In this document: piece by piece, positions 15,428 to 45,961 of the stretch
How the letters are laid out: each line of letters starts with the position of its first letter
How positions within the stretch are numbered: position 1 is the stretch's first letter
NCBI RefSeq assembly: GCF_002214505.1
Contig: NZ_CP015103.1
Coordinates: 992,001 to 1,056,000 of the forward strand
Direction: 5' to 3'
Source: Thermococcus siculi
GTDB lineage: Archaea; Methanobacteriota_B; Thermococci; Thermococcales; Thermococcaceae
DNA: 64,000 nucleotides
Notes under the pieces: model-generated
The model's input: the letters and a program-made list of their open reading frames with translations, nothing else
The model's database searches: none
What the model was told of the DNA's origin: nothing
Translations under genes and position numbers: made by a program

Positions 15428-16561
15428 ATGATAGGGCTTATAATCAACCCGATAGCTGGAATGGGGGGAAAGGTGGCGCTCAAGGGCACCGACGGCGTCG
15501 TCGAGGAGGCGATAAGGAGGGGAGCAAGGCCCGTGGCTCCCGACCTCGTGAGGCTCTTCCTTGGGGAGCTGAGCCACTACGGGGAATCCGCCGAAATCGA
15601 GTTCCTTACCGGTCCCGGCCCGCTTGGGGAGGATGTTCTGAGGGAGTTCGACTTTCCCTTCGAGGTTATCAGGCACAGGAAGGTAACCTACCGGACGGTT
15701 GATGGCGTCAGAATTCCGGATACGACCTCCGAAGACACTAGAGAGCTTGCCGGGGCGATGGTGGGGAAGGTTGATTTGCTCCTCTTTGCGGGGGGAGATG
15801 GAACGGCGAGGGACGTCGTGGGGGTTGTCGATGAGAGGGTTCCCGTTCTCGGAATTCCAACGGGGGTGAAGATGTACTCCGGAGTCTTCGCCACCTCCCC
15901 TGAAGACGCGGCGAGGGTTCTCGTCGAGTTCCTCAAAGGGAAGGCCAGACTTGAGGAGAGGGAAGTTAGGGACATCGATGAAGATGCCTACCGACACGAC
16001 GAGGTCAGTGCGAGAACCTACGGAAAGGCCATTGTTCCGGTCGTTGAGACGCTCGTCCAGGGGAGCAAGGAGAGGGTTCCCATAGATGAGGAGGATGAAC
16101 TCGAGGCAATCGCCGAGGCCGTGGCGGAGGAGATACTCGAGAGCGATGGGGTCTACTTCCTCGGCTCCGGCTCCACAGTAAAGAGGATAAAGGACATGCT
16201 TGGAATAGACGGGACGCTACTCGGTGTCGATATTGTCGAGGTTCGGGACGGGAAGGCGCGGCTCCTCGTTAAGGACGCGGCAGAGAGGGATCTTCTGAAG
16301 TTCGTTGAGAGGAACCCCAGGATAGTGGTCACGGTTATCGGCGGGATGGGCTTCCTCTTTGGCAGGGGCAACCAGCAGTTCTCGGCGGAGGTTCTGAGGC
16401 ATATTCCCAAGGAAAACATCACCGTGGTCGCAACGCCCTCCAAGATCAGAGACGGCGTCGTGAGGGTCTACACGGGCGATAGGGAGGTCGACGAAAGGCT
16501 CAGGGGCTACATACGCGTCAGGGTAAGCCCCTGGATGGAGAGGATGGTCAGGGTGGTTTAG
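15428..16561 (+). CDS. ATP-NAD kinase-like protein (COG3199)
   Basis: 377 residues. Opens with MIGLIINPIAGMGGKVALKG and has the NAD kinase/diacylglycerol kinase fold signature LLLFAGGDGTARDVVGVV with GGDGT, then GIPTGVKMYSG. C-terminal half includes GGMGFLFGRGNQQFS. These are the features of the COG3199 group, predicted polyphosphate/ATP-dependent NAD kinases distinct from the canonical NAD kinase. GGTGAGAGC precedes the ATG; the ribosome site overlaps the stop of the channel gene, so the two are co-translated. Whether it phosphorylates NAD, a lipid or another small molecule cannot be decided here. Confidence 0.82.
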   Translation: MIGLIINPIAGMGGKVALKGTDGVVEEAIRRGARPVAPDLVRLFLGELSHYGESAEIEFLTGPGPLGEDVLREFDFPFEVIRHRKVTYRTVDGVRIPDTTSEDTRELAGAMVGKVDLLLFAGGDGTARDVVGVVDERVPVLGIPTGVKMYSGVFATSPEDAARVLVEFLKGKARLEEREVRDIDEDAYRHDEVSARTYGKAIVPVVETLVQGSKERVPIDEEDELEAIAEAVAEEILESDGVYFLGSGSTVKRIKDMLGIDGTLLGVDIVEVRDGKARLLVKDAAERDLLKFVERNPRIVVTVIGGMGFLFGRGNQQFSAEVLRHIPKENITVVATPSKIRDGVVRVYTGDREVDERLRGYIRVRVSPWMERMVRVV

Positions 16562-16618
16562 GCGGACGAACCAGAAGCCGTTTATACCACCTCCCCCTAT
16601 TCTCAACCGGTGGATGCT

Positions 16619-17518
16619 ATGAAGTACAGCCGCATAGCGGTTCGGCTTTTTGAGAGGGAGGGTGAGGACGTCTTCTACGACCCCGTTTATCACGGAAGAA
16701 CCCTCAAGGTCTTTGGCATGGACGAGTGGCCGGGGAAGATCCTCCAGTACTTTGTGGAGCGGTACCGGGAGATAGGCTACGGTACGGTGGTCTTCGACAC
16801 CACGGGAACTTTCCCGGAGGAGGGCTTTGACACGGTTATCAAGGTGGAGGATGGAAAAGGAACCGGCCTCGACCCGCTGGTTCTGGCTTCCGAGGGCATC
16901 ATTGACGGCTATACCGCCGCCACGATAATCCAGACCGTCTACGGCCTCGACAGAACCCTAACCGAGAGACTCTACGCGGACTTCCTCGCCGGGAAGGCGG
17001 GAAGCGTTCCGGAGGCGGCGAAGTCGGAGAACAAGTACGCCGAGGTCATCCTGGAGAGCTACACGCCCCTCGATGAGGCCTTTTACCGGGGCAAACCCCC
17101 CGAGTTCGGAGATAACATCCTGGTGAACCTCGGGGAGACGTACAGCATAACCCTCGCTGGGATGGCTTTTCTGGTGGTGAGTGCCGCTATCAGAAAGAGG
17201 AGGAACGTGATGGTTGGCGTTAACGATGCCGCGGTTCTGGCCTACACGACCGCCGGTAGCGCAGCCGTGCCCCTCATAACGAGGCCACTGAGGCGGAGGG
17301 TAACTGTATTAGCCACGCAGTACGCGGTGGAGTCCATAATGAACCTCTCCGGCCCGAGCCTGCTCCTCTACCATGACCCCGACACTCAGAGCGTCGTCTA
17401 CGAGGCCAATGGTGTTCCCCCAGGTCCGATGAGGAAGCACGTACACAAGGGGCAGGCGGCCTTCATATATCGCACTCCGGAGACGATAGACGTGGAGTGG
17501 GGCGAGATATCTCTCTAG
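16619..17518 (+). CDS. Uncharacterised protein resembling a degenerate HerA/VirB4-like ATPase
   Basis: 299 residues from ATG 16619 (GGTG at 16609-16612 is the ribosome site; TATA-like TTTATACC near 16580). I do not recognise a named family. The order of blocks recalls HerA/VirB4-type ATPases: GMDEWPGKIL where Walker A would be (GK present, Ser/Thr missing), TVVFDTTGTF as a Walker B-like strand, LDPLVLA, then VMVGVNDAAVL and VTVLATQYAVESI (strand with sensor-like Gln) and a terminal GQAAFIYRTP. Key catalytic residues look lost, so a non-hydrolysing paralogue is one reading. It may be read with 13981-16561 but has its own promoter-like box. Confidence 0.65.
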   Translation: MKYSRIAVRLFEREGEDVFYDPVYHGRTLKVFGMDEWPGKILQYFVERYREIGYGTVVFDTTGTFPEEGFDTVIKVEDGKGTGLDPLVLASEGIIDGYTAATIIQTVYGLDRTLTERLYADFLAGKAGSVPEAAKSENKYAEVILESYTPLDEAFYRGKPPEFGDNILVNLGETYSITLAGMAFLVVSAAIRKRRNVMVGVNDAAVLAYTTAGSAAVPLITRPLRRRVTVLATQYAVESIMNLSGPSLLLYHDPDTQSVVYEANGVPPGPMRKHVHKGQAAFIYRTPETIDVEWGEISL

Positions 17519-18714
17519 CCCCTCAGATTCTTCACTATCTCCTCCATGACACCGAGGAAGGTATCGACCTCCTCAACGCTGTTGTAGACGTGGAACGACG
17601 CTCTAACTGTCCCGTTTATTCCGAGCTTCTTCATCACCGGAAGGGCGCAGTGGTGGCCCGAGCGAACCATTATGCTGTGCTCGTCGAGTATCGCCGCGAC
17701 GTCGTGGGGGTGCAGAGTTGGAACGTTGAAGCTGACAACACCGGCGTGCTTCTTCAGGTTCCTCGGCCCGTACCACGGAACCTCAAGCTCGTCCAGCCCC
17801 TCGGTGATTCGCTTCACTAACCTGTGCTCCTGCCTCTCGATTCTGTCGATTCCAATCCTTTCGATGTACTTGATTCCCGCGGCGAGGCCTATGGCACCGC
17901 CTATGTTCGGCGTTCCGGCCTCGAAGCGCTCCGGGGGTTCCGTCAGCTTGTAGGAGTCGAGGCTGACGTCTTCGATGGTGCCGCCGCCTATGAGGGGAGG
18001 CTCGAATGTTTCGAAGAACTCCTCGTTCACGTAGAGAACGCCTATCCCCGTCGGCCCCATCGGTCCCTTGTGGCCTGAAAGCCCTAAAAAGTCGGCGTGG
18101 AGCTTCTTGACGTCCACCTCCATATGGCCGGCGCTTTGAGCTGCGTCAACCACGAATATTGCCCCCTCCTCCTTCGCCATCTTTCCAAGCTCCTCGACCT
18201 CGTGGATCACTCCCAAAGCGTTCGAGACGTGCTGAACCGCTACGAGCTTTGCCCCCTTTATTTTCCTCTCGGCATCGTTCAAATCCAGGTTGCCCTCGTC
18301 GTCCCCCTCTATGAACTCCAGCTTCAGCCCCTTCTTCCTCGCCAGCCTCTGCCAGGGGAGTAAATCCGAGTGGTGCTCGTAGGGGGTGGTTACTATCTTG
18401 TCCCCGGGCTTGAAGAGATGCTCCAGGCCGAGGGCGGCCAGATTCAGGCTCTCGCTCGTGTTCTTTGTGAAGACTATCTCCTCGAACTTCGCGTTGAGGA
18501 AGTCGGCGACGACCTTCCTGCTCTCCTCGTATTTATGCGTCGCCATCTGGGAGAGCCTGTGTATTCCCCTGTGCACGTTGGCGCGGTATCTGAGGTAGTA
18601 CTCGTCCATGGCATCAATAACCGGCTTCGGTGTGAGGGAAGTTGCCGTGTTGTCGAAGTAGATGACCTCGCTCGTCAGAGGGATGTCCTTTCTCACATCC
18701 TCGGGTATTCTCAT
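17515..18714 (-). CDS. sufS: Cysteine desulfurase, SufS/CsdA type
   Basis: 399 residues, PLP-dependent class V aminotransferase fold. YFDNTATSLTP at the N-terminus, PYEHHSDLLPWQ, VDAAQSAGH and the PLP lysine in LSGHKGPMGPTGIG; the persulfide cysteine lies in RSGHHCALP near the C-terminus. Takes sulfur from cysteine for Fe-S cluster or other thio-cofactor synthesis. ATG 18714 overlaps the upstream stop by 4 bp (ATGA), so it is co-translated with the 97-residue protein at 18711-19004; the longer frame reaching 19014 is a readthrough of that gene in another frame. The Suf scaffold genes lie 16 kb away at 34.2 kb. The desulfurase and the degenerate HerA-like gene converge and overlap by 4 bp at 17515-17518. 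Confidence 0.92.
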   Translation of the reverse strand: MRIPEDVRKDIPLTSEVIYFDNTATSLTPKPVIDAMDEYYLRYRANVHRGIHRLSQMATHKYEESRKVVADFLNAKFEEIVFTKNTSESLNLAALGLEHLFKPGDKIVTTPYEHHSDLLPWQRLARKKGLKLEFIEGDDEGNLDLNDAERKIKGAKLVAVQHVSNALGVIHEVEELGKMAKEEGAIFVVDAAQSAGHMEVDVKKLHADFLGLSGHKGPMGPTGIGVLYVNEEFFETFEPPLIGGGTIEDVSLDSYKLTEPPERFEAGTPNIGGAIGLAAGIKYIERIGIDRIERQEHRLVKRITEGLDELEVPWYGPRNLKKHAGVVSFNVPTLHPHDVAAILDEHSIMVRSGHHCALPVMKKLGINGTVRASFHVYNSVEEVDTFLGVMEEIVKNLRG

Positions 18715-37611: not shown

Positions 37612-38604
37612 TCAATCTAAAATCATGTGCTTGACGGTTTTCAATCCCGTCAGGAGCCACAGCGCAAAGAGGAGCCAGTACAGGGCGAAGCCGAGGGAGT
37701 CTATGGCCCCGATGCCGAAGGCGGTGCCCACGTTGTGGGTTGCGCTCACGTAGGCCCCAAGCGGGAAGATGAAGGCCCACCAGGCGAGGCTGTAGGGCAG
37801 GTGGAGGTTTCTGATGTAGTGCAGGGTTATGGCTATCGCCATGAGGAGCCACCAGAGGCCAAAACCCCAGAGGATGAAGGCGAAGGCCTTGAAGGCTTCC
37901 GCCGCCACCGGCAGCATCTTGGTGAGGTTCAGCAGTGCCACCGCACCAGCCCCGAGCGGTCCGAGGTTTATCCAGACTGAGGGGGCCATCAGGGGCGGTA
38001 GAAGCTCGTGGGTTATGAAGCGCCTCATAACTATGGCGAAGAGTGCCAGATAGATGAAAAAGCCCGCGCCGAAGCCGAAGTAGTTGAGTGCTATGAAGAT
38101 TCCCTTCCACGTTTCGGAGCTGGGGACGAAGGGCAGGGCAGTTAGGGGTATCACCATCAGGCCGACCGGCGGGATAAACCATGCGGGCGTCACGGTCTTA
38201 ACGTCCACTCCCTCGCCTATGAAGAACAGGTACGGTATCAGCAGGGCAAAGAATATCACGAGGAGGCTCCCGAGAATCCAGAGCGGGAGGGCCATGCCTT
38301 TGTAGCCGACCATCGCCAGGTTCATGGCCACTATAGTCATCGCTATGGGCATGGTTCCGTAGAAGTGGCTAGTTACCGGGTGGTAGAGGTCTTTCTTCGC
38401 CTCCGCGGGATACCGAATCCACCTCAGGAGCCACGGTATCAGAAGAAGGAAGAATATGGTGGCGTTTAGGTATATCAGCCCCTTCGAGAGCGTTCCCAGC
38501 CACGTCAGCTTCGATGAGTAGGCTTTGCTCACGAGCGCCAAAGCTCCGGTACCCATAACGCTAGCGAACCAGCTCGGTGCGAAGTCTTTCACGTTCACTC
38601 TCAT
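37612..38604 (-). CDS. TDT (TehA/SLAC1/Mae1) family anion transporter
   Basis: 330 residues, ten membrane segments. Starts KDFAPSWFASVMGTGALAL, the TDT-family opening; later YGTMPIAMTIVAMNLAM, PAWFIPPVGLMVIPLTAL and YFGFGAGFFIYLALFAIVMRR. Members move malate, sulfite, tellurite, nitrate or chloride. AGGTGAAAGAAA precedes ATG 38604. TATA CCTTAAATG (38638-38646) overlaps a palindrome ATGTGCACAT. First of a run of transporters and redox proteins through 46 kb. Confidence 0.87.
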   Translation of the reverse strand: MRVNVKDFAPSWFASVMGTGALALVSKAYSSKLTWLGTLSKGLIYLNATIFFLLLIPWLLRWIRYPAEAKKDLYHPVTSHFYGTMPIAMTIVAMNLAMVGYKGMALPLWILGSLLVIFFALLIPYLFFIGEGVDVKTVTPAWFIPPVGLMVIPLTALPFVPSSETWKGIFIALNYFGFGAGFFIYLALFAIVMRRFITHELLPPLMAPSVWINLGPLGAGAVALLNLTKMLPVAAEAFKAFAFILWGFGLWWLLMAIAITLHYIRNLHLPYSLAWWAFIFPLGAYVSATHNVGTAFGIGAIDSLGFALYWLLFALWLLTGLKTVKHMILD

Positions 38605-38630
38605 TTTCTTTCACCTGTGATGGCGTTCAG

Positions 38631-38640
38631 ATGTGCACAT
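38631..38640. promoter_or_regulatory. Palindrome ATGTGCACAT overlapping the TDT transporter promoter
   Basis: Lies at the downstream edge of the TATA box (38638-38646, minus strand). It shares the TGTGCA half with the longer palindrome before the NifX-like gene at 39143-39156. Confidence 0.45.
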
Positions 38641-38708
38641 TTAAGGTTTTCTGGACGTTCTGTTCAGACCCCCAAATGTCTGGGAAAGCCGTTATGCAAT
38701 CAAGGCCA

Positions 38709-39098
38709 TCAATGCTTGCAGTGTCCCTCTCTTTCCTTCTCCCGCTCTATCTTCTCCTTCCAGTAGGGGTCGACCTCAAGAACCTGCTCTATGAAGGCCT
38801 TAACGACGTCTTTGACGGGGCCGTAGGCACCGGTGACGACCTCGATGCCGAGCTGGTTGAAGAAGCCTATCGCCCTCTGTCCCATGCCGTAGGCGAGCAC
38901 AACTTCCCCGCCGTGCTCCCTCACGAAGTGGGGCAGGTCTCCCGGCCCGTGCTCCTCGAAGGGAACCTTGACCACCTCCGCACCTTTTATCTCGTTGTTC
39001 TCCACGTCCACGAAGACGAAGTACCTGGCCCTTCCGAAGTGGCCGCTTACGCTGCTCTCCAGACCTTTATCATCCTCAGCTGGAATGGCTATCCTCAT
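38709..39098 (-). CDS. NifX/NifB-C-terminal-like dinitrogenase cofactor family protein
   Basis: 129 residues from ATG 39098 (GGAGGTGCAAAA ahead). PF02579-type fold: MRIAIPAEDDKGLESSVSGHFGRARYFVFVDV, GEVVLAYGMGQRAIGFFNQLGIEVVTGAYGPVKDVVKAFI, then a charged tail ending GHCKH with possible metal-binding Cys/His. In archaea without nitrogenase these proteins are thought to bind or sense metal-sulfur species. TATA GTTTATATTTG (39130-39140) with a perfect 14-bp palindrome directly upstream. Confidence 0.85.
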   Translation of the reverse strand: MRIAIPAEDDKGLESSVSGHFGRARYFVFVDVENNEIKGAEVVKVPFEEHGPGDLPHFVREHGGEVVLAYGMGQRAIGFFNQLGIEVVTGAYGPVKDVVKAFIEQVLEVDPYWKEKIEREKEREGHCKH

Positions 39099-39142
39099 TT
39101 TTGCACCTCCATTCACATGAAATTTTTGTCAAATATAAACTT

Positions 39143-39156
39143 TGTGCATATGCACA
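39143..39156. promoter_or_regulatory. Perfect 14-bp palindrome TGTGCATATGCACA
   Basis: Sits 3 bp upstream of the TATA box of the NifX-like gene, an activator position, and just after the stop of the convergent-side regulator gene (39162). Related to ATGTGCACAT at 38631-38640. Confidence 0.5.
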
Positions 39157-39161
39157 TGCTT

Positions 39162-39491
39162 TTACTCTCTGAATATCTCTCCAGTTGCAAGGTCTATGCC
39201 AATTTTCCTAACCTTCAGCTTCCAGAGCTTCTCGGGAGCGCCGCCGCCCTCCTCCCTGTAGCCGGCCATCTCGATTATCCCGGCGTCCTCAAGGGCCGAG
39301 AGGTGATAGTATAGCGTTGAACGCGGCAGATCAAGGCCCCTCTCCTGCAGGCCCTGGTAGATTTCGTTCGTCCCCTTAACGCCGTCACTCAGTATTTTGA
39401 TGATGCTCCTCTTAGGTTCGGCCATCAGCGGCTTCAGGATCATCATGAGGCTCTTCAGGTTTCCCATCTCCCCCATCATCCATCTCGGCAT
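39162..39491 (-). CDS. ArsR/PadR-like winged-helix transcriptional regulator
   Basis: 109 residues from ATG 39491 (GGGTGATAG ahead; GTG 39500 less likely). Winged helix: LMAEPKRSIIKILSDGVKGTNEIYQGLQERGLDLPRSTLYYHLSALEDAGIIEMAGYREEGGGAPEKLWKL. The STLYYHLSALEDAGII recognition helix is ArsR-type. No obvious metal- or redox-sensing cysteines. TATA TTTTATAAGG at 39522-39531; a TGTTAG half-site in its leader (39508-39513) matches the palindrome before the universal stress gene, hinting that it regulates itself and that operon. Confidence 0.83.
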   Translation of the reverse strand: MPRWMMGEMGNLKSLMMILKPLMAEPKRSIIKILSDGVKGTNEIYQGLQERGLDLPRSTLYYHLSALEDAGIIEMAGYREEGGGAPEKLWKLKVRKIGIDLATGEIFRE

Positions 39492-39585
39492 CTCTATCAC
39501 CCTTATCTGTTAGCTCCCAAACCTTATAAAATTACCGCCTTGGGGCAAATTTAACTCGAATATTATAGAAAGCTTTATAAATAAT

Positions 39586-39601
39586 TTTGTGATATTACAA
39601 A
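39586..39601. promoter_or_regulatory. Inverted repeat TTTGT-N6-ACAAA in the leader of the 39626 gene
   Basis: Follows the TATA box AGCTTTATAAATAA (about 39571-39584) and overlaps the expected transcript start, a repressor position. Confidence 0.35.
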
Positions 39602-39625
39602 TTAAGAAAGTTGGAGGTGATTGAG

Positions 39626-39940
39626 ATGCCGTTTGGAACTCCCGGATGGAAGTGGAAGGTTGGAAGGTTCGGCTACACCGTCGAGAAGGAGCCGGACTAC
39701 GAGGAGATGAGGGCCAAGGCCAAGGAAGTCCTCTCAAAGGCAATCAAGGGAGCCGCTTGGAGGTGCCGCTGTGGAAGCCTTCACATCCCCCTCGTTGTTG
39801 AGGGGCAGATAATAGGCGAACTCTGGGAGGACGTTGACCCGAAGGAAGCCGAGGTAGGCGCCTACTGGTTTGGAAGGTGGGGAACCAAGGTTCAGCTCGT
39901 GAAGGACGGAAAGGTTGTGGGCTTTCTCTGGCTCGCCTGA
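39626..39940 (+). CDS. Small conserved-looking protein of unknown function
   Basis: 104 residues from ATG 39626 with a strong GGAGGTGATTGAG ribosome site. Sequence starts MPFGTPGWKWKVGRFGYTVEKEPDYEEM, then WRCRCGSLHIPLVVEGQIIGELWEDVDPKEAEVGAYWFGRWGTKVQLV (shown here in two parts: a CRCG pair and a beta-rich half). The CRCG could bind metal. Between a winged-helix regulator and an anion transporter in the 37.6-46 kb cluster. I do not recognise it. Confidence 0.65.
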   Translation: MPFGTPGWKWKVGRFGYTVEKEPDYEEMRAKAKEVLSKAIKGAAWRCRCGSLHIPLVVEGQIIGELWEDVDPKEAEVGAYWFGRWGTKVQLVKDGKVVGFLWLA

Positions 39941-39943
39941 GCC

Positions 39944-39954
39944 TTTTATTTTTT
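39944..39954 (+). terminator. T-rich terminator after the 39626 gene
   Basis: TTTTATTTTTT directly after the stop codon. Confidence 0.45.
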
Positions 39955-39981
39955 GGCCAGAAATATGAAAAATAAAAAAGT

Positions 39982-41010
39982 ATGAAGATGGTAGAGATGG
40001 ATGTTGTTGAGTTCATGAAGGAGAAGATGGTCTACATAGTGTTCACTCTCATCTTTGCCTCAACATACGCAGGTGTTTACCACCGCGACCTCTTCCTGTC
40101 CCTGAAGGGAACCCTCCCGGTAGCGCTCTTCATGATGCTCTTCCAGCCCATGGTCTTCATGGAGGTAAAGAGGGCGTTCACCGCGAGGACGGAGGTTAAG
40201 ACGAAGTACCTCATACTGCTGACGCTGTTCTACCTCGCGCTTTTCCCCGCCCTCACGTGGCTCCTCCTGAAGTTCTGGCTCGCGGTAATGCCAGGAACAG
40301 ACCCAAGACTGCTCGCAGGTATTGTTCTCATAAGCCTCTCACCGCTCCCCAGCTCGGCACCGGCCTTCACCAACCTCGCCGGTGGGAGGTTTCAGCTGAC
40401 CCTCGTTGGAGTCATATGGACTTTCCTGCTCTCGCTCTTCGTGATGCCGGTCTACGCGAAGCTGATACTTCACGCAGTCATTCAGGTGCCCGTTGATGTG
40501 CTCCTCAAGTCCCTCGTCCTCTACATAATAACGCCCCTTATCATCGGCCAGCTGACAAAGTACGCCGTCCTCCGCTGGAAGGGTGTGGATGCGCTCATGT
40601 TCCTCAAAAAGCCCCTCGTTGGCGTTTCCCTCCTCGGCATGTACTGGATGGTCGTGGTGGTCTTCGGCATAAACGGGAAGGTGATAGTCGAGAGGCCAGA
40701 GCTGATACTTGTGGGGGCCATCATTATGAACGTCTATTTCCTCCTGCGCGCGGCCATAGCCTACTTCAGCGGAAAAGCTCTCAGCTTTCCCTTTGAGCAG
40801 AACGTTTCCCTGGTTTACTCCACCGGCTCCAACATGACCCTGGCAACGGCAATAGCAATAGGAACCTTCGGTTCGCTGGCGGCAGTTGGCACGGCTCTGG
40901 GTGGACCCTTCAGCGACATGCTCCTGATGATACTCTTCGTCAGGTTCTTCAACCTGCTGAAAAAGCGTATATACGTTGAAACCAATATTCCTGCAGGTGA
41001 AGAAACATGA
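39982..41010 (+). CDS. BASS/ACR3-superfamily transporter
   Basis: 342 residues; ten membrane segments. The arrangement and SPLPSSAPAFTNLAGGRFQLTLVGVIW match the bile-acid/arsenite (BASS) superfamily, but the ACR3 cysteine position is Ser here (SPLPSSA), so arsenite is unlikely as a cargo of this copy. ATG 39982 is followed by others at 39988 and 39997; 39997 has GGTAGAG before it. Overlaps the DGC-like gene by 4 bp (ATGA). A second member is encoded at 42031. Confidence 0.78.
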   Translation: MKMVEMDVVEFMKEKMVYIVFTLIFASTYAGVYHRDLFLSLKGTLPVALFMMLFQPMVFMEVKRAFTARTEVKTKYLILLTLFYLALFPALTWLLLKFWLAVMPGTDPRLLAGIVLISLSPLPSSAPAFTNLAGGRFQLTLVGVIWTFLLSLFVMPVYAKLILHAVIQVPVDVLLKSLVLYIITPLIIGQLTKYAVLRWKGVDALMFLKKPLVGVSLLGMYWMVVVVFGINGKVIVERPELILVGAIIMNVYFLLRAAIAYFSGKALSFPFEQNVSLVYSTGSNMTLATAIAIGTFGSLAAVGTALGGPFSDMLLMILFVRFFNLLKKRIYVETNIPAGEET

Positions 41011-41378
41011 CTGACCCTGAGGTCTGCCTCATAACCTGCGGGGAGTCACTCTCCGAGCTGATTGCCGTTGAGGCATTGAAGGAACTTGGGGATGCTGCGG
41101 TGCTGTGCCCGCTCACTGCGATTACAAGGGGAGTCCCTGAGGTCATTGAAAGAATGAAGGCGGCCAGGTACGTTGTCCTCATTGATTCCTGTTCCCTGCG
41201 GTGCGCAAAGAAGACGGCCGATGAACTCGGCATCCACTATGACGAGTACATAAACCTTGAGGAGGAGCTTAACATTAAAACCCCCTGCTACGAGAACCCC
41301 TCAGTGGAGGCGGTTGATGACATAGGGCTTGGGGCCACTCATCTGGTCGAGAGGATAGGGGAACTTCTGAGCGATTGA
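41007..41378 (+). CDS. DGC-domain-like putative zinc-binding protein
   Basis: 123 residues. Cysteines VCLITCGES, AVLCPLTAI, VVLIDSCSLRCAKKTADELG and NIKTPCYENP match the DGC family pattern (Asp-x-Cys-x3-Cys-Ala-Lys; here DSCSLRCAKK with Ser replacing the middle Gly). DGC proteins have no settled function and often accompany redox and transport genes. Co-translated with the BASS transporter before it. Confidence 0.75.
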   Translation: MTDPEVCLITCGESLSELIAVEALKELGDAAVLCPLTAITRGVPEVIERMKAARYVVLIDSCSLRCAKKTADELGIHYDEYINLEEELNIKTPCYENPSVEAVDDIGLGATHLVERIGELLSD

Positions 41379-41494
41379 TGCACATTCCCTAAATCTAGAC
41401 GGCTGTGGGCAACAAATAGAGGTACGTTTAACCTATAGTGCCTCATCCCTTTCTGCTCCTCAGTGCCCACTCTTGGTCAGCAAACTTTAAAACC

Positions 41495-41512
41495 TGTTAG
41501 GTTCGTCTAACA
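41495..41512. promoter_or_regulatory. Operator-like inverted repeat TGTTAG-N6-CTAACA
   Basis: Begins right after the TATA box AACTTTAAAACC (41483-41494) and covers the expected transcript start of the universal stress/ACR3-like operon. Half-site TGTTAG recurs in the leader of the ArsR-like gene (39508-39513). The rest of the 176-bp gap at 41379-41554 shows nothing else. Confidence 0.6.
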
Positions 41513-41554
41513 TGTGAAAAATAACTAAAATGAAAGATATATCAGGTGATAGTG

Positions 41555-42028
41555 ATGTTTAGAAAAATCCTGTTCCCCACGGATTTCAGCGAGGGGGCCT
41601 GCAGGGCGGTTGAAAAGTTTGAGAAGAGCAACGAGATGGCCGTCGGTGAGGTGATCCTCCTCCACGTCGTCGATGAGGGCATCGTCGAGGAGCTGATGAA
41701 CGGCTACTCCATGCTGTACGACGACGTGGGAGTTGAGCTAAACGCCGTTGAAAAGGAGCTTAAGGCGAAGGCCCTAAAGAAGCTCCAGGAGAGGGTGGAT
41801 CGGGTTAAGAAGGCCTTCGGGACCGAGAGGGTGAAGCCGGTCGTCAGGTTCGGCTTCCCCTGGGAGGAGATAGTCAAAGTCGCCGAGGAAGAAGACGTCT
41901 CGCTCATAGTACTGCCCAGCCACGGCAAGATGGGCTTCTCCCGCGAGCTCTTCGGTTCAACGGCCATGCGCGTCCTGAAGAAGACGAAGAGGCCCGTTCT
42001 CATGATAAAGACCCACGAGGAGGGATGA
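41555..42028 (+). CDS. Universal stress protein family
   Basis: 157 residues from ATG 41555 (AGGTGATAGTG ahead). MFRKILFPTDFSEGACRAV at the start, IVEELMNGYSMLYDDVGVELN in the middle and the ATP-binding GxxGx9GS loop LPSHGKMGFSRELFGSTAMRVLKKTKRPVLMI at the end, given in part. ATP-binding USP type. Co-transcribed with the following ACR3-like permease, with stop and start overlapping by 4 bp if ATG 42025 is used. Probably couples a stress or nucleotide signal to the transporter. Confidence 0.88.
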   Translation: MFRKILFPTDFSEGACRAVEKFEKSNEMAVGEVILLHVVDEGIVEELMNGYSMLYDDVGVELNAVEKELKAKALKKLQERVDRVKKAFGTERVKPVVRFGFPWEEIVKVAEEEDVSLIVLPSHGKMGFSRELFGSTAMRVLKKTKRPVLMIKTHEEG

Positions 42029-42030
42029 GG

Positions 42031-43059
42031 ATGAACTGGTTAAAGCTCAAGGAGCACCTGGATAAATACCTGCCCGTTTACGTCACGCTCGCCATGATGG
42101 CGGGCTTCTACGTTGGAACCCACGCGAACCTCAAGCCATACCACAGCACGCTCAAGACCCTCAACATGCTCGTCGTCATCAGCATGATTTATCCCATGAT
42201 GATCAACCTCCGCCTCGGCGAACTGAAGAACAGCGCGAAGCTCGGGAAGCAGCTGGTCATAGCGCTCACGATGGGGCTGGTTATCTCCCCGCTCATCATG
42301 TACGGTGCAATATGGCTCACTGAACTCTTCCATCCCATCAACCACCAGCTGGCACTCGGCCTGCTCCTCGCTGTGGTGGTCCCGTGCTCCTCGATGAGCA
42401 TAGCCTACACGGGCTTCACGAAGGGGAACCTTGAGCTGGCAACAATAGTTGTCGCCCTCAGCTTCACCCTGGCAATAGTCACCGTTCCCGCTTGGCTCAA
42501 GGTCTTCGCCTCCAGCTACCACGTGGGCATCTCGGTCTGGCTCCTCGTCAAGACAATCCTCATAGTCGTCATAACGCCCATGATCCTCGGCGTCCTCACG
42601 AGGTGGTACCTCCTCAACAAGCTCGGAGCGGAGGGCTTCCTCAGGATAAAGCCGGCATTTCCAGCTATCTCACTCCTCGGCATGTACACCATCGTTTTCC
42701 TCATCTTCATGGAGAAGGCGAAGCTCATAGCCAGCAAGCCGAGCATCGTGGGAATAGCCCTAGTCCCACTCGTGCTCTACTACTCGACAGCCCTCCTCTT
42801 CATGACGTTCTTTGACAGGGCCGTTGGGGTTCCTTACAAGGACCACATGGCGGTGACCTTCACCTCAGTCGGAAAGAACGAGGGAACGGCGATGGCGATA
42901 GCCCTCGCGGCGGGGACGGGCCTGATGGCGATAGCACCCGCAATAACCCCAATAGTCCAGATACCGTTCCTCGTCGGCTACGTTAAAGCCTGGAGAAAGG
43001 TTGCGGGGCTGTGGAAGTGCAGGCTTCTGAGGGAGGAAGAGACGGAAGCCCTCTCCTGA
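42031..43059 (+). CDS. ACR3-like permease of the BASS superfamily
   Basis: 342 residues; ten membrane segments. VVPCSSMSIAYTGFTKGNLEL carries the cysteine in segment 4 that is essential in ACR3 arsenite carriers, and SVGKNEGTAMAIALA matches the second conserved block. Arsenite or antimonite export is therefore plausible; other anions are possible. ATG 42031 has AGGAGGG about 6 bp before it; ATG 42025 is the overlapping alternative. Second gene of the USP operon and distant paralogue of 39982-41010. Confidence 0.8.
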   Translation: MNWLKLKEHLDKYLPVYVTLAMMAGFYVGTHANLKPYHSTLKTLNMLVVISMIYPMMINLRLGELKNSAKLGKQLVIALTMGLVISPLIMYGAIWLTELFHPINHQLALGLLLAVVVPCSSMSIAYTGFTKGNLELATIVVALSFTLAIVTVPAWLKVFASSYHVGISVWLLVKTILIVVITPMILGVLTRWYLLNKLGAEGFLRIKPAFPAISLLGMYTIVFLIFMEKAKLIASKPSIVGIALVPLVLYYSTALLFMTFFDRAVGVPYKDHMAVTFTSVGKNEGTAMAIALAAGTGLMAIAPAITPIVQIPFLVGYVKAWRKVAGLWKCRLLREEETEALS

Positions 43060-43064
43060 CACTC

Positions 43065-43070
43065 TTTTTT
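43065..43070 (+). terminator. T6 terminator after the ACR3-like gene
   Basis: Six T just after the stop codon, between convergent genes. Confidence 0.4.
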
Positions 43071-43136
43071 ACAATCTCGCTGTTCTGATGGAACCGTAAC
43101 TGAAGTGAATTGAAAGAAAAAGAGCGGACAGTTCGT

Positions 43137-44966
43137 TCAGAGCCTCCTCCCTACCTCATAGCCTTCCTTCACGGCGCTGGCGATGTTCCTGACAGACTTC
43201 GCGTCGCCTATTATGTGGTACTCAACGCCGTCTATGACGAATGGTACGTGGGGCCTCATGCCGAAGGCTCCGACGATAACGTCGCACTCGATCATCTCTT
43301 TTTCTCCCGTCTCGGTGTTCTCCACTATCGCGTAGCCCTCGCCGGCGCTCACAAAGCGCCTGTTGACGATTATCGGGATGCCTCTCTCCTCCAGCTCCCT
43401 GAGGAGGTAGCCGCGCGTGATCCTCTCCACGTTCGGCAGAACCGCCGGACTGCGCTTGATTATTTTTATCCTGTTGTTGAACTGCGCTAGGTAGATGGCC
43501 GTCTCGACGCCGACCAGACCGCCGCCACCGATGAGGACGCTCTTGTTCTCGACCTTGACTTCCCCGGTGAGGATCTTATCAAAGGGTGTTATCAACCCGC
43601 GCTCCCCGCTGCACGGGAGGAACGGCTTCGCTCCGGTGGCTATAACGACCGCGTCAGGTTTCACGGCCAGGATGTCTTCCTTGGTGGCCGCGCCCTCATG
43701 CAGGTGGACGTTCGGGAGCTCCGCCAGGACGTTCCGGTAGTACTCTATGAGCCAGCCTATCTTCTCCTTCCCCGGCGGAACTTTCGCAAGGACGAGCTGG
43801 CCGCCGAAGGTCTCGTAGAACAGGTGAACCTCGTGGCCCCTCAGCGCCGCGACCCTGGCCGCTTCCAGGCCGCCGGGTCCGGCGCCAACGATGGCAATCC
43901 TCTTCCTTGCCTCTGCCTTGGGTATGTCCTCCTCGTTGCCCACGTTGGCGTTCGCGCCGCACCTTATCGGCCCCTTCTCGTCGTGGACTGCCTTGATGCA
44001 CTCGCTGCAGCCGATGCATCTCCTTATCAGGTGCTCCTTCCCCTCGGCGACTTTCTTCACCCAGTCGGGGTCGGCTATGAGAGTCCTTCCGAGGACTACC
44101 AGGTCGGCCTGAGTCTCAAGAACCCTCTCGGCAACGGCCGGCTCCCTTATCATTCCCACCGCCGCAACCGGGACGGGCAGGGGTCTTATCTTCTCCGCGA
44201 GGTAGGCGCGCCAAGCCTGCGGGTAGTGCATCGGCTCAAGGCGCTTCTCCTTCGGGCCGAGGCCGATATCCGCCTGTATCATGTCGTAGCCGGCCTTTGC
44301 CAGCTCCATGGCTATCTCCCTTCCCATCGTGAGGTTTATTCCGCCCTCGAGGAAATCGTCAACGGCCAGTCTTATCGTCACCGGAAAGTCCCGGCCGCAC
44401 TCCTCGGCTATCCTCTTCCTGACGACCTTGGCGAAGCGCGTCCTCTGCCCCCACTCGTCGTCTCGGTGGTTCGTCAGCGGTGAGAGGAACTGGTTCACGA
44501 GGAGCCCGTGTGCGCCCTGTATCTCCACCATGTCAAAACCAGCTTCCATCGCCAGCCTCGCTGAGTATGCGAACTTCTCGATCAGCTCCTCTATCTTCTC
44601 GGGGGAGAGGTAATCAACGCCGTCCTTCTTCCAGCCCTCGTGGGCAAGCTCTATGGAGAGCTTAACACCCTCGTACTTGTGAACCTCGAAGGCCAGCCAC
44701 TCCCAGTCCTTAAGGACGGCCTTCGAGTCTATCCTCGGCTGGAAGGGCATGTGCTTGCCTTCGGGGAAGTCTATCGAGGTGTTCTCGACTATTATGAGTC
44801 CAACGCCACCCCTGGCGCGTCTCTCGTAGTGCTTGACGAACCTCTCCGTCAGCCTGCCGTTCTCCAGTGCGAAGTTCGTTGATATTGGCGGGAACACTGC
44901 CCTGTTCATGAGTTCAACTTTTCCAATGTTTATCGGCTCAAAGAGCTTAGGGTAATCTTCTTTCAT
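43137..44966 (-). CDS. Old-yellow-enzyme/2,4-dienoyl-CoA reductase-like Fe-S flavoprotein
   Basis: 609 residues from ATG 44966 (AGGTGACCCGA ahead; TATA CTTTATATATCC at about 44997-45008). N-terminal FMN TIM barrel (LFEPINIGKVELMNRAVFPP, IQGAHGLLVNQFLSP), [4Fe-4S] cysteines CIGCSECIK plus RCGANAN, then FAD (IVGAGPGGLEAARVAA) and NAD(P)H (IGGGGLVGVETAIYLA) domains. Same layout as bacterial 2,4-dienoyl-CoA reductase and trimethylamine dehydrogenase; the substrate in Thermococcales is not established. Lies between transporters and an OsmC-like gene. Confidence 0.9.
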   Translation of the reverse strand: MKEDYPKLFEPINIGKVELMNRAVFPPISTNFALENGRLTERFVKHYERRARGGVGLIIVENTSIDFPEGKHMPFQPRIDSKAVLKDWEWLAFEVHKYEGVKLSIELAHEGWKKDGVDYLSPEKIEELIEKFAYSARLAMEAGFDMVEIQGAHGLLVNQFLSPLTNHRDDEWGQRTRFAKVVRKRIAEECGRDFPVTIRLAVDDFLEGGINLTMGREIAMELAKAGYDMIQADIGLGPKEKRLEPMHYPQAWRAYLAEKIRPLPVPVAAVGMIREPAVAERVLETQADLVVLGRTLIADPDWVKKVAEGKEHLIRRCIGCSECIKAVHDEKGPIRCGANANVGNEEDIPKAEARKRIAIVGAGPGGLEAARVAALRGHEVHLFYETFGGQLVLAKVPPGKEKIGWLIEYYRNVLAELPNVHLHEGAATKEDILAVKPDAVVIATGAKPFLPCSGERGLITPFDKILTGEVKVENKSVLIGGGGLVGVETAIYLAQFNNRIKIIKRSPAVLPNVERITRGYLLRELEERGIPIIVNRRFVSAGEGYAIVENTETGEKEMIECDVIVGAFGMRPHVPFVIDGVEYHIIGDAKSVRNIASAVKEGYEVGRRL

Positions 44967-45091
44967 TCGGGTCACCTAAGGGCGGTTCGAGGAGGGATAT
45001 ATAAAGTTTTGTTCAGTTGAGGTCGGGTTTATATGAGAGGTTTTGATGAGTTGGTCTGCGCACAGAACAAAGAGGGGGTGTGTCGGGGAAC

Positions 45092-45505
45092 TTAGGTATC
45101 TCTGACTACCTCCACCTCTCCCCTTATCTTCTCTGCACCGACGGTGTTGAAAACGGTGCCGTACTTCTCTGCAAGCTCCTTAACACGCATTATCTTTTTC
45201 TCGGGTTCGTTTGTGAGGATGGTAATCTTGTAAGTTATCTCCTTCAATTGGGGTTCGTCAAGCCCGCGCCAGCCCCTGACCTCGACCTCAAAGCCCTTCA
45301 CGTCGAGGCGCATCTTTTTGATGAGCCTGCCCCAGTTGACGGTTAAACAGCCTCCGATCGCTGCTAATAGGTACTCCGTCGGATTTGGGCCGGCGTTGTG
45401 GCCGTCGGTGTTCGTGTCTATCCTGAAAGTGAATTCCCTCACCTCCGCGGTGCTCCCCACGTTGCCGTCCCACTCAAGCTCCGCCCTGTACTCGAGCCTC
45501 TCCAT
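45092..45505 (-). CDS. OsmC-family protein with a single cysteine
   Basis: 137 residues from ATG 45505 (CAGGTGGTGTT ahead). OsmC/Ohr fold: PNPTEYLLAAIGGCLTVNWGRLIKKM supplies the first cysteine, but the second, normally in a CPV-NT motif, is replaced (AEKYGTVFNTVG), and no other cysteine exists in the protein. So classic two-cysteine peroxidase chemistry is unlikely; binding of persulfide or another ligand is possible. TATA-like CTATTAAAACC near 45538-45548 with an inverted repeat downstream. Confidence 0.87.
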   Translation of the reverse strand: MERLEYRAELEWDGNVGSTAEVREFTFRIDTNTDGHNAGPNPTEYLLAAIGGCLTVNWGRLIKKMRLDVKGFEVEVRGWRGLDEPQLKEITYKITILTNEPEKKIMRVKELAEKYGTVFNTVGAEKIRGEVEVVRDT

Positions 45506-45519
45506 AACACCACCTGAAA

Positions 45520-45533
45520 TGAAATTGCTTTCA
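45520..45533. promoter_or_regulatory. Inverted repeat TGAAA-N4-TTTCA before the OsmC-like gene
   Basis: Between the likely TATA box and the ribosome site; flanked by CCTG and CAGG that extend the dyad. Repressor-type position. Confidence 0.45.
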
Positions 45534-45628
45534 CAGGTTTTAATAGGTTTTCCGGGAACAGAATAGGGGACAACTGTATGCGCCCGGAGAATAGAATTAA
45601 AAGGGTTGATATCTACCGGTAGGCAGTG

Positions 45629-45961
45629 ATGTCGATGCTGCTTGGGGTTCCAACTTCAAAGGGTGGTCTTGACGATAAAATCCATGAAAGCCTTGTCCGG
45701 GCCGAGACGTTCACACTGGTGGAGCTTGAGAACGGCGAAATAAAAGACGTGGAGGTCGTTGGGAACCCTTACAAGAGCGAACCCTACGGGGCTGGCTCTA
45801 AGGTGGCCCTATTCCTTGTCAACCTCGGCGTGAAAGTTCTTGTGACCCGTGTTGACTGTCCGAAAGGGAAAATGATTCTCGATTCTGCGGGGGTCAAGGT
45901 TATGAAAATTGAGGGAGAACTTACCGTTAGAGAGGTAATCCAAAAGATGTTGAGGGGTTAA
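45629..45961 (+). CDS. NifX-like dinitrogenase cofactor family protein, second copy
   Basis: About 110 residues (ATG 45629 or 45635). MLLGVPTSKGGLDDKIHESLVRAETFTLVEL, VEVVGNPYKSEPYGAGSKVALFLVNLGVKVLVTRVDCPKGKMILDSAGVKV given in parts show the PF02579 fold. One cysteine (RVDCPKGK). Divergent from the OsmC-like gene. Together with 38709-39098 there are two such proteins in the cluster; probable binder of metal-sulfur or oxyanion-derived species. Confidence 0.8.
   Translation: MSMLLGVPTSKGGLDDKIHESLVRAETFTLVELENGEIKDVEVVGNPYKSEPYGAGSKVALFLVNLGVKVLVTRVDCPKGKMILDSAGVKVMKIEGELTVREVIQKMLRG

Follow-up and report, generated by a model that had tools for sequence, protein, structure and literature searches.

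Eleven genes lie within 8.3 kb of the window, which is the whole stretch of 64,000 nucleotides that was analysed, and the question is whether they belong together. The earlier note proposed that all of them form one system for the transport and reductive handling of a toxic oxyanion or thio-anion. The window is part of a closed, Thermococcus-type genome of 2,029,167 bp (2.03 Mb), which was compared with 93 other Thermococcaceae genomes (94 in total), and the gene surroundings of the matches were inspected in about 50 loci. All eleven genes were found among the open reading frames and with Pfam and NCBIfam profiles. The profile matches agree with the assigned identities, namely an SLAC1/TDT transporter, two NifX-like proteins, an ArsR/HTH_20 regulator, two SBF carriers, a DGC protein, a Usp protein, an Fe-S flavoprotein and an OsmC protein, the last of which indeed contains a single cysteine. 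As judged from the DNA sequence, the genes make up several small, independent modules in an island of variable content, and three of the modules seem to possess a conserved DNA switch of their own. The non-random grouping is limited to the core genes encoding ArsR, CRCG and BASS1. The core operon and its control region comprise the following features:

39162 to 39500, minus strand: ArsR/HTH_20-type regulator, 112 amino acids, no cysteine, with a winged helix of the ArsR type (Pfam HTH_5 and HTH_20 above cut-off)
39574 to 39583, plus strand: TATA box TTTATAAATA of the CRCG operon, conserved in 21 loci
39585 to 39601, either strand: putative operator TTTTGTGATATTACAAA, the sole such site in the genome
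39626 to 39940, plus strand: CRCG protein, 104 amino acids, found in 18 Thermococcaceae genomes
39982 to 41010, plus strand: BASS1, an SBF-family carrier lacking the ACR3 cysteine (profile match), lineage-restricted
41007 to 41378, plus strand: DGC-domain protein with five invariant cysteines (Pfam, 45 bits)

The core consists of the cysteine-less ArsR-like regulator and, divergently oriented, the CRCG-BASS1(-DGC) genes. CRCG is present in 18 of the 94 genomes, and the regulator gene stands alongside in all 18. BASS1 occurs in 14 genomes (in one of them as a remnant), each of which also has CRCG, and the four genomes that have CRCG but not BASS1 all carry another protein of this type, BASS3, behind CRCG. 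The co-occurrence of ArsR, CRCG and BASS1 gave Fisher p values of 1e-12 to 1e-17, without correction for shared ancestry. Most relatives have a TauE/SafE permease gene (Pfam, 82 bits) between the regulator and CRCG genes, as the first gene of the cassette. No orthologue of this permease was found in the genome of the window, which thus carries a shortened cassette. Moreover, the regulator-CRCG pair recurs at other loci and on a plasmid of T. peptonophilus. BASS1 had no match at E <= 1e-40 beyond the Thermococcaceae in 115 genomes of the phylum. The DGC protein scores 45 bits against a cut-off of 27 for PF08859, and its five cysteines are invariant among nine orthologues; no DGC match was found on plasmids, and a literature search on DGC and arsenic gave nothing relevant.

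The divergent region between the regulator and CRCG genes contains the palindrome TTTTGTRATATTACAAA directly downstream of the TATA box. A block of 45 bp in this region shows a mean column identity of 92% in 21 loci, compared with 71% outside. Exact copies of the 17-mer are present in 17 of the 94 genomes, and every copy is located at the regulator-CRCG locus, which in one of these genomes (G051) is truncated by the contig end right at the site. The window's genome has this one site only, and no similar sites (up to three mismatches) precede the TDT, NifX1, USP, flavoprotein or OsmC genes, so that the regulator is likely to act locally. Given the position of the putative operator next to the TATA box, the regulator would be a repressor. 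Regulation by SurR was rejected, as no double GTTnnnAAC-type site was found inside the cluster.

The remaining genes flank the core on both sides:

37612 to 38604, minus strand: TDT/SLAC1-family anion transporter, outside the ArsR operon (Pfam SLAC1 256 bits and TIGR00816 298 bits, above cut-off)
38709 to 39098, minus strand: NifX1, Nitro_FeMo-Co (Pfam, 77 bits); the ATG at 39098 was chosen as the start, the reading frame extending to 39116
39143 to 39156, either strand: NifX1 promoter palindrome TGTGCATATGCACA, conserved before nifX1 in relatives
41497 to 41510, either strand: promoter element of USP, TTAGGTTCGTCTAA, differing at one position from TTAGGN4CCTAA, conserved beside the TATA box
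41546 to 42028, plus strand: universal stress protein (USP) of a separate module (Pfam Usp, 97 bits)
42025 to 43059, plus strand: BASS2, an SBF-family carrier with a cysteine at the ACR3 position (profile match, alignment)
43137 to 44975, minus strand: OYE-type Fe-S flavoprotein reductase (Pfam Oxidored_FMN and Pyr_redox_2; CIGCSEC motif)
45092 to 45505, minus strand: OsmC neighbour (profile match)
45626 to 45961, plus strand: NifX2 neighbour, Nitro_FeMo-Co (Pfam, 50 bits)

Most genes had been thought to possess palindromic operators. This applies to three promoters that are conserved across species (CRCG, USP and NifX1), but in the cross-species comparison no conserved palindrome was seen before TDT, OsmC or NifX2. 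The palindrome TGTGCATATGCACA has two perfect copies in the genome, both before nifX-family genes. The second copy (L147, 1501-1514; G000, C1:1766237) is flanked by another nifX gene and, in divergent orientation, by a DUF364/DUF4213 'heavy-metal chelation' gene, and the two sites may constitute a two-site NifX regulon. The element of the USP-BASS2 module, TTAGGNNNNCCTAA, lies next to the promoter in 15 of 18 loci if one mismatch is allowed. Searched for by pattern alone, with two mismatches allowed, it does not exceed its chance frequency in the window, and the case for it therefore rests on position and conservation. BASS2 was found in 23 genomes, 14 of which lack CRCG. The flavoprotein, whose gene is preceded by a conserved block that is not palindromic, is accompanied by BASS2 in 14 of 15 genomes. 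It was the sole basis for the proposed reductive handling, and its distribution follows that of BASS2, not that of the core.

As to the USP-BASS2 module alone, it is conceivable, though on balance doubtful, that an unsaturated organic acid is taken up through BASS2 and then reduced by the flavoprotein. Besides the linkage of the two genes, this would fit the nearest curated models of the flavoprotein, which are enoate, bile-acid and bilirubin reductases. Its domain order and cysteine cluster motif are those of OYE-type Fe-S reductases such as 2,4-dienoyl-CoA reductase, BaiCD and bilirubin reductase. However, unlike these enzymes, the flavoprotein scores far below every curated cut-off and is encoded beside a BASS carrier. 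Furthermore, it is missing in 9 of the 23 BASS2 genomes, and several genomes have a radical-SAM/B12 gene or AOR genes after BASS2 in its place.

The idea of one oxyanion-handling system does not survive this comparison. Different parts of the region are under at least three operators that are unrelated to one another; the USP-BASS2, flavoprotein, TDT/NifX1 and OsmC/NifX2 genes are present in genomes without the core, and several of these neighbours are missing where the core is present. A single oxyanion regulon is ruled out by the single ArsR operator in the genome together with three unrelated conserved promoter motifs, since three unrelated promoter elements imply that at least three regulators are likely to be at work. 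Co-conservation was thus found for ArsR, CRCG and BASS1, but not for the other genes. The suggestion that the cluster is not a known named system holds; part of it is co-conserved, and it is built of anion-carrier families. The best reading is that the USP-BASS2 genes with the flavoprotein, NifX1, and the TDT/OsmC/NifX2 genes are separately controlled neighbours of the cassette.

To what the core responds is suggested by one genome of the set, G019, which we take to be that of T. gammatolerans EJ3. If the genes are counted from the Fe3+-dicitrate ATPase (tg0819) onwards, BASS1, CRCG, TauE and the regulator correspond to tg0838, tg0839, tg0840 and tg0841, respectively, and a second HTH regulator to tg0849. 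The anchor tg0857, which encodes a potassium uptake protein of the TrkH family, is off by at most one gene. The same counting places the CzcD-type transporter at tg0830, in agreement with a published study, in which tg0841 and tg0849 are termed ArsR-related, fitting the counted positions (PMC3407056). The window regulator stands in the same gene order as tg0841 (PMC3407056), with about 83% identity, and is probably its orthologue, the tg numbers being well anchored. Since these numbers were obtained by counting, the tie between the published induction and the window locus is one that we infer. The tg0841 gene was reported in 2012 to be induced 39.4-fold by Ni, 13.1-fold by Cd, 3.0-fold by Zn and 2.7-fold by gamma rays (RT-PCR; PMC3407056). 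For tg0841, the main text of that study reports expression alone and gives no target, operator or function, and the Cd-regulated transporters it names do not include tg0838 and tg0840 (PMC3407056), a point against the explanation preferred below. The expression assays described there included no oxyanion, and the study gives GSE13546 as its GEO accession (PMC3407056). If the gene mapping is right, the known inducers of the orthologue are thus limited to Cd, Ni, Zn and, weakly, gamma rays. The induction by Cd and Ni could be indirect, for example through depletion of sulfide or thiols. A literature search on TGAM and PH locus tags yielded nothing relevant. In the locus assigned to T. gammatolerans (L049), TauE and TDT genes form a second pair near the cassette (15890-18247). 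An HTH regulator of its own accompanies this pair; it is tg0849 by the same counting, and tg0849 is likewise reported as Cd-regulated (PMC3407056).

The gene surroundings of the regulator's relatives also point to metals and metalloids. Relatives adjoin ArsC-like and ACR3 genes in four loci (L043, L056, L058 and L114), one is located on the same strand beside ACR3 (L136), and others adjoin P-type ATPases (L059-L061). In L139-L143, distant relatives with 46-58% identity precede a permease that is split into two adjacent ArsP_1-matching genes. Like ars operons (ArsR-ACR3-ArsC, ArsP), the window has an ArsR-family regulator beside a BASS-superfamily carrier, and in some relatives canonical ACR3 and ArsC genes stand next to the cassette. 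Unlike in ars operons, the regulator of the window has no cysteines, the carriers remain under the ACR3 cut-off, and the CRCG and DGC genes are additional. The cluster contains neither an arsenate reductase nor an arsenite efflux gene, so that it does not qualify as an ars operon; the locus is an ArsR-type operon with non-standard carriers.

Our preferred explanation, to which we assign a probability of about 0.45, is that the core is a metal-stress-responsive, locally regulated efflux cassette for an anion or metalloid within a variable island that also holds unrelated modules. The observed basis is gene content, synteny, co-occurrence, and the conservation and uniqueness of the operator; the published basis, tied to the locus by gene counting, is that Ni, Cd and Zn induce the regulator gene. 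This explanation draws together the co-inheritance of ArsR, CRCG and BASS1 or BASS3, the conserved 45-bp block, the unique palindrome, the tg0841 data, the regulator relatives beside metal(loid) export genes and the five invariant DGC cysteines. The repressor would block transcription by binding to the palindrome, which adjoins the TATA box on its downstream side, and metal or metalloid stress would release it directly or indirectly. BASS, together with TauE/SafE where present, would then export an anion or metalloid that is toxic or has been displaced, while the cysteine-rich DGC protein, possibly with CRCG, may handle a soft cytoplasmic metal(loid). Repression, release by metal, direction of export and substrate class are thus all predictions. 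Besides the limits of the tg0841 data given above, it counts against this explanation that the DGC gene is missing from several cassettes, and that the regulator sequence contains no recognised metal site and, with zero cysteines, none of the cysteine sites typical of arsenic or cadmium sensors, although a site made of other types of ligand is conceivable.

Sulfite exporters occur among the TauE/SafE and TDT families, and these archaea reduce sulfur. It could therefore be argued that TauE/SafE, TDT and BASS remove sulfite, thiosulfate or a similar anion and that metals act indirectly via sulfide chemistry; the TauE-TDT pair near the T. gammatolerans cassette, with its Cd-regulated second regulator, would suit this idea. 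As in operons of TauE/SafE (TSUP) sulfite/sulfonate exporters, a TauE-family protein comes first in most relatives' cassettes, but the window's operon has no such permease and hence does not count as one of them. Moreover, both the cassette TauE and the second TauE have been lost from the window's genome, the ArsR operator is absent before TDT, and the carrier families are broad. Sulfur-anion export is thus an unlikely explanation.

An arsenic system, in which arsenite, thioarsenite or an organoarsenical leaves the cell through BASS1, BASS2 or both in place of ACR3, is less plausible still. The regulator relatives beside ACR3, ArsC-like and ArsP_1 genes would be in line with it, as would the ACR3 cysteine in BASS2 and the genome of the window, which has no ACR3 and no SBF proteins other than BASS1 and BASS2. 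Both carriers, which had been described as ACR3/BASS proteins, indeed belong to the SBF superfamily, and the TM4 cysteine of ACR3 is present in BASS2 and absent from BASS1, but neither is an ACR3. Against the ACR3 model (TIGR00832), they reach 76 and 108 bits, respectively, compared with a cut-off of 282.8 and about 390 bits for true ACR3 proteins of relatives. Beside the cysteine, ACR3 has a second functional residue, a conserved glutamate needed for As(III)/H+ antiport (PMC9671657). This glutamate is not in position in either carrier, being one residue off in BASS2 in an ungapped reading. The low scores and the misplaced glutamate rule out an ACR3 identity of the BASS pair. Furthermore, canonical ACR3 is not associated with the cassette at the genome level (4 of 18 CRCG genomes versus 14 of 76 others), the regulator lacks cysteines, and BASS2 is controlled by a different operator. 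Finally, a chance neighbourhood, in which an insertion hotspot gathered transporter genes without any functional cassette, would fit the highly variable island content and the frequent remnants (truncated regulators in L102, L108 and L114, damaged BASS genes in L057 and L058), but is very improbable in view of the strict ArsR-CRCG-BASS linkage, the operator private to the locus, and the regulator-CRCG pairs elsewhere and on the T. peptonophilus plasmid.

The CRCG protein, which had been described as being of unknown type, belongs to a family of about 104-109 amino acids. It matched nothing in Pfam and NCBIfam, its sequence had no match in the PDB, and a structure model (mean pLDDT 77) had no PDB fold match at E <= 0.001. 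The eponymous motif is not conserved, being replaced by RNPRG, IGKWG or NFWG in relatives, and a cysteine metal site is ruled out as a general rule by the loss of the cysteines in several orthologues. A Met-rich form is encoded beside the same regulator family in L059, L060, L061 and L138, together with a SHOCT protein and genes resembling cysteine synthase/CBS and cystathionine gamma-synthase; in L059-L061, P-type ATPases of the copper type are nearby, and one Met-rich copy is located on the T. peptonophilus plasmid. In Hyphomicrobiales (L066, 9923-10315; L067, 9414-10297), relatives with 41-46% identity to the window protein have an N-terminal stretch resembling a signal peptide and adjoin nuclease- and phospholipase-like genes, and one genome has two tandem copies. 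It seems improbable that the cysteine-less ArsR regulator and CRCG make up a new kind of pair for the response to metal(loid)s, in which the two stay together while the efflux partner changes. BASS/TauE carriers would then go with the Cys form of CRCG and P-type ATPases with the Met-rich form, and CRCG would bind metal as a co-sensor or chaperone.

The comparison defines a putative operator that can be tested. T. kodakarensis, which is probably represented by one genome of the set, is genetically tractable; the cassette is apparently missing from this species, and it could act as a clean host. The most interesting element of the locus is CRCG, an undescribed family without a Pfam entry that is present in Hyphomicrobiales as well, where it is apparently secreted, and BASS1 defines a lineage-restricted BASS family. 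The strongly Ni- and Cd-inducible regulator gene of T. gammatolerans would, provided that the gene mapping is correct, thereby gain an operator and an operon.
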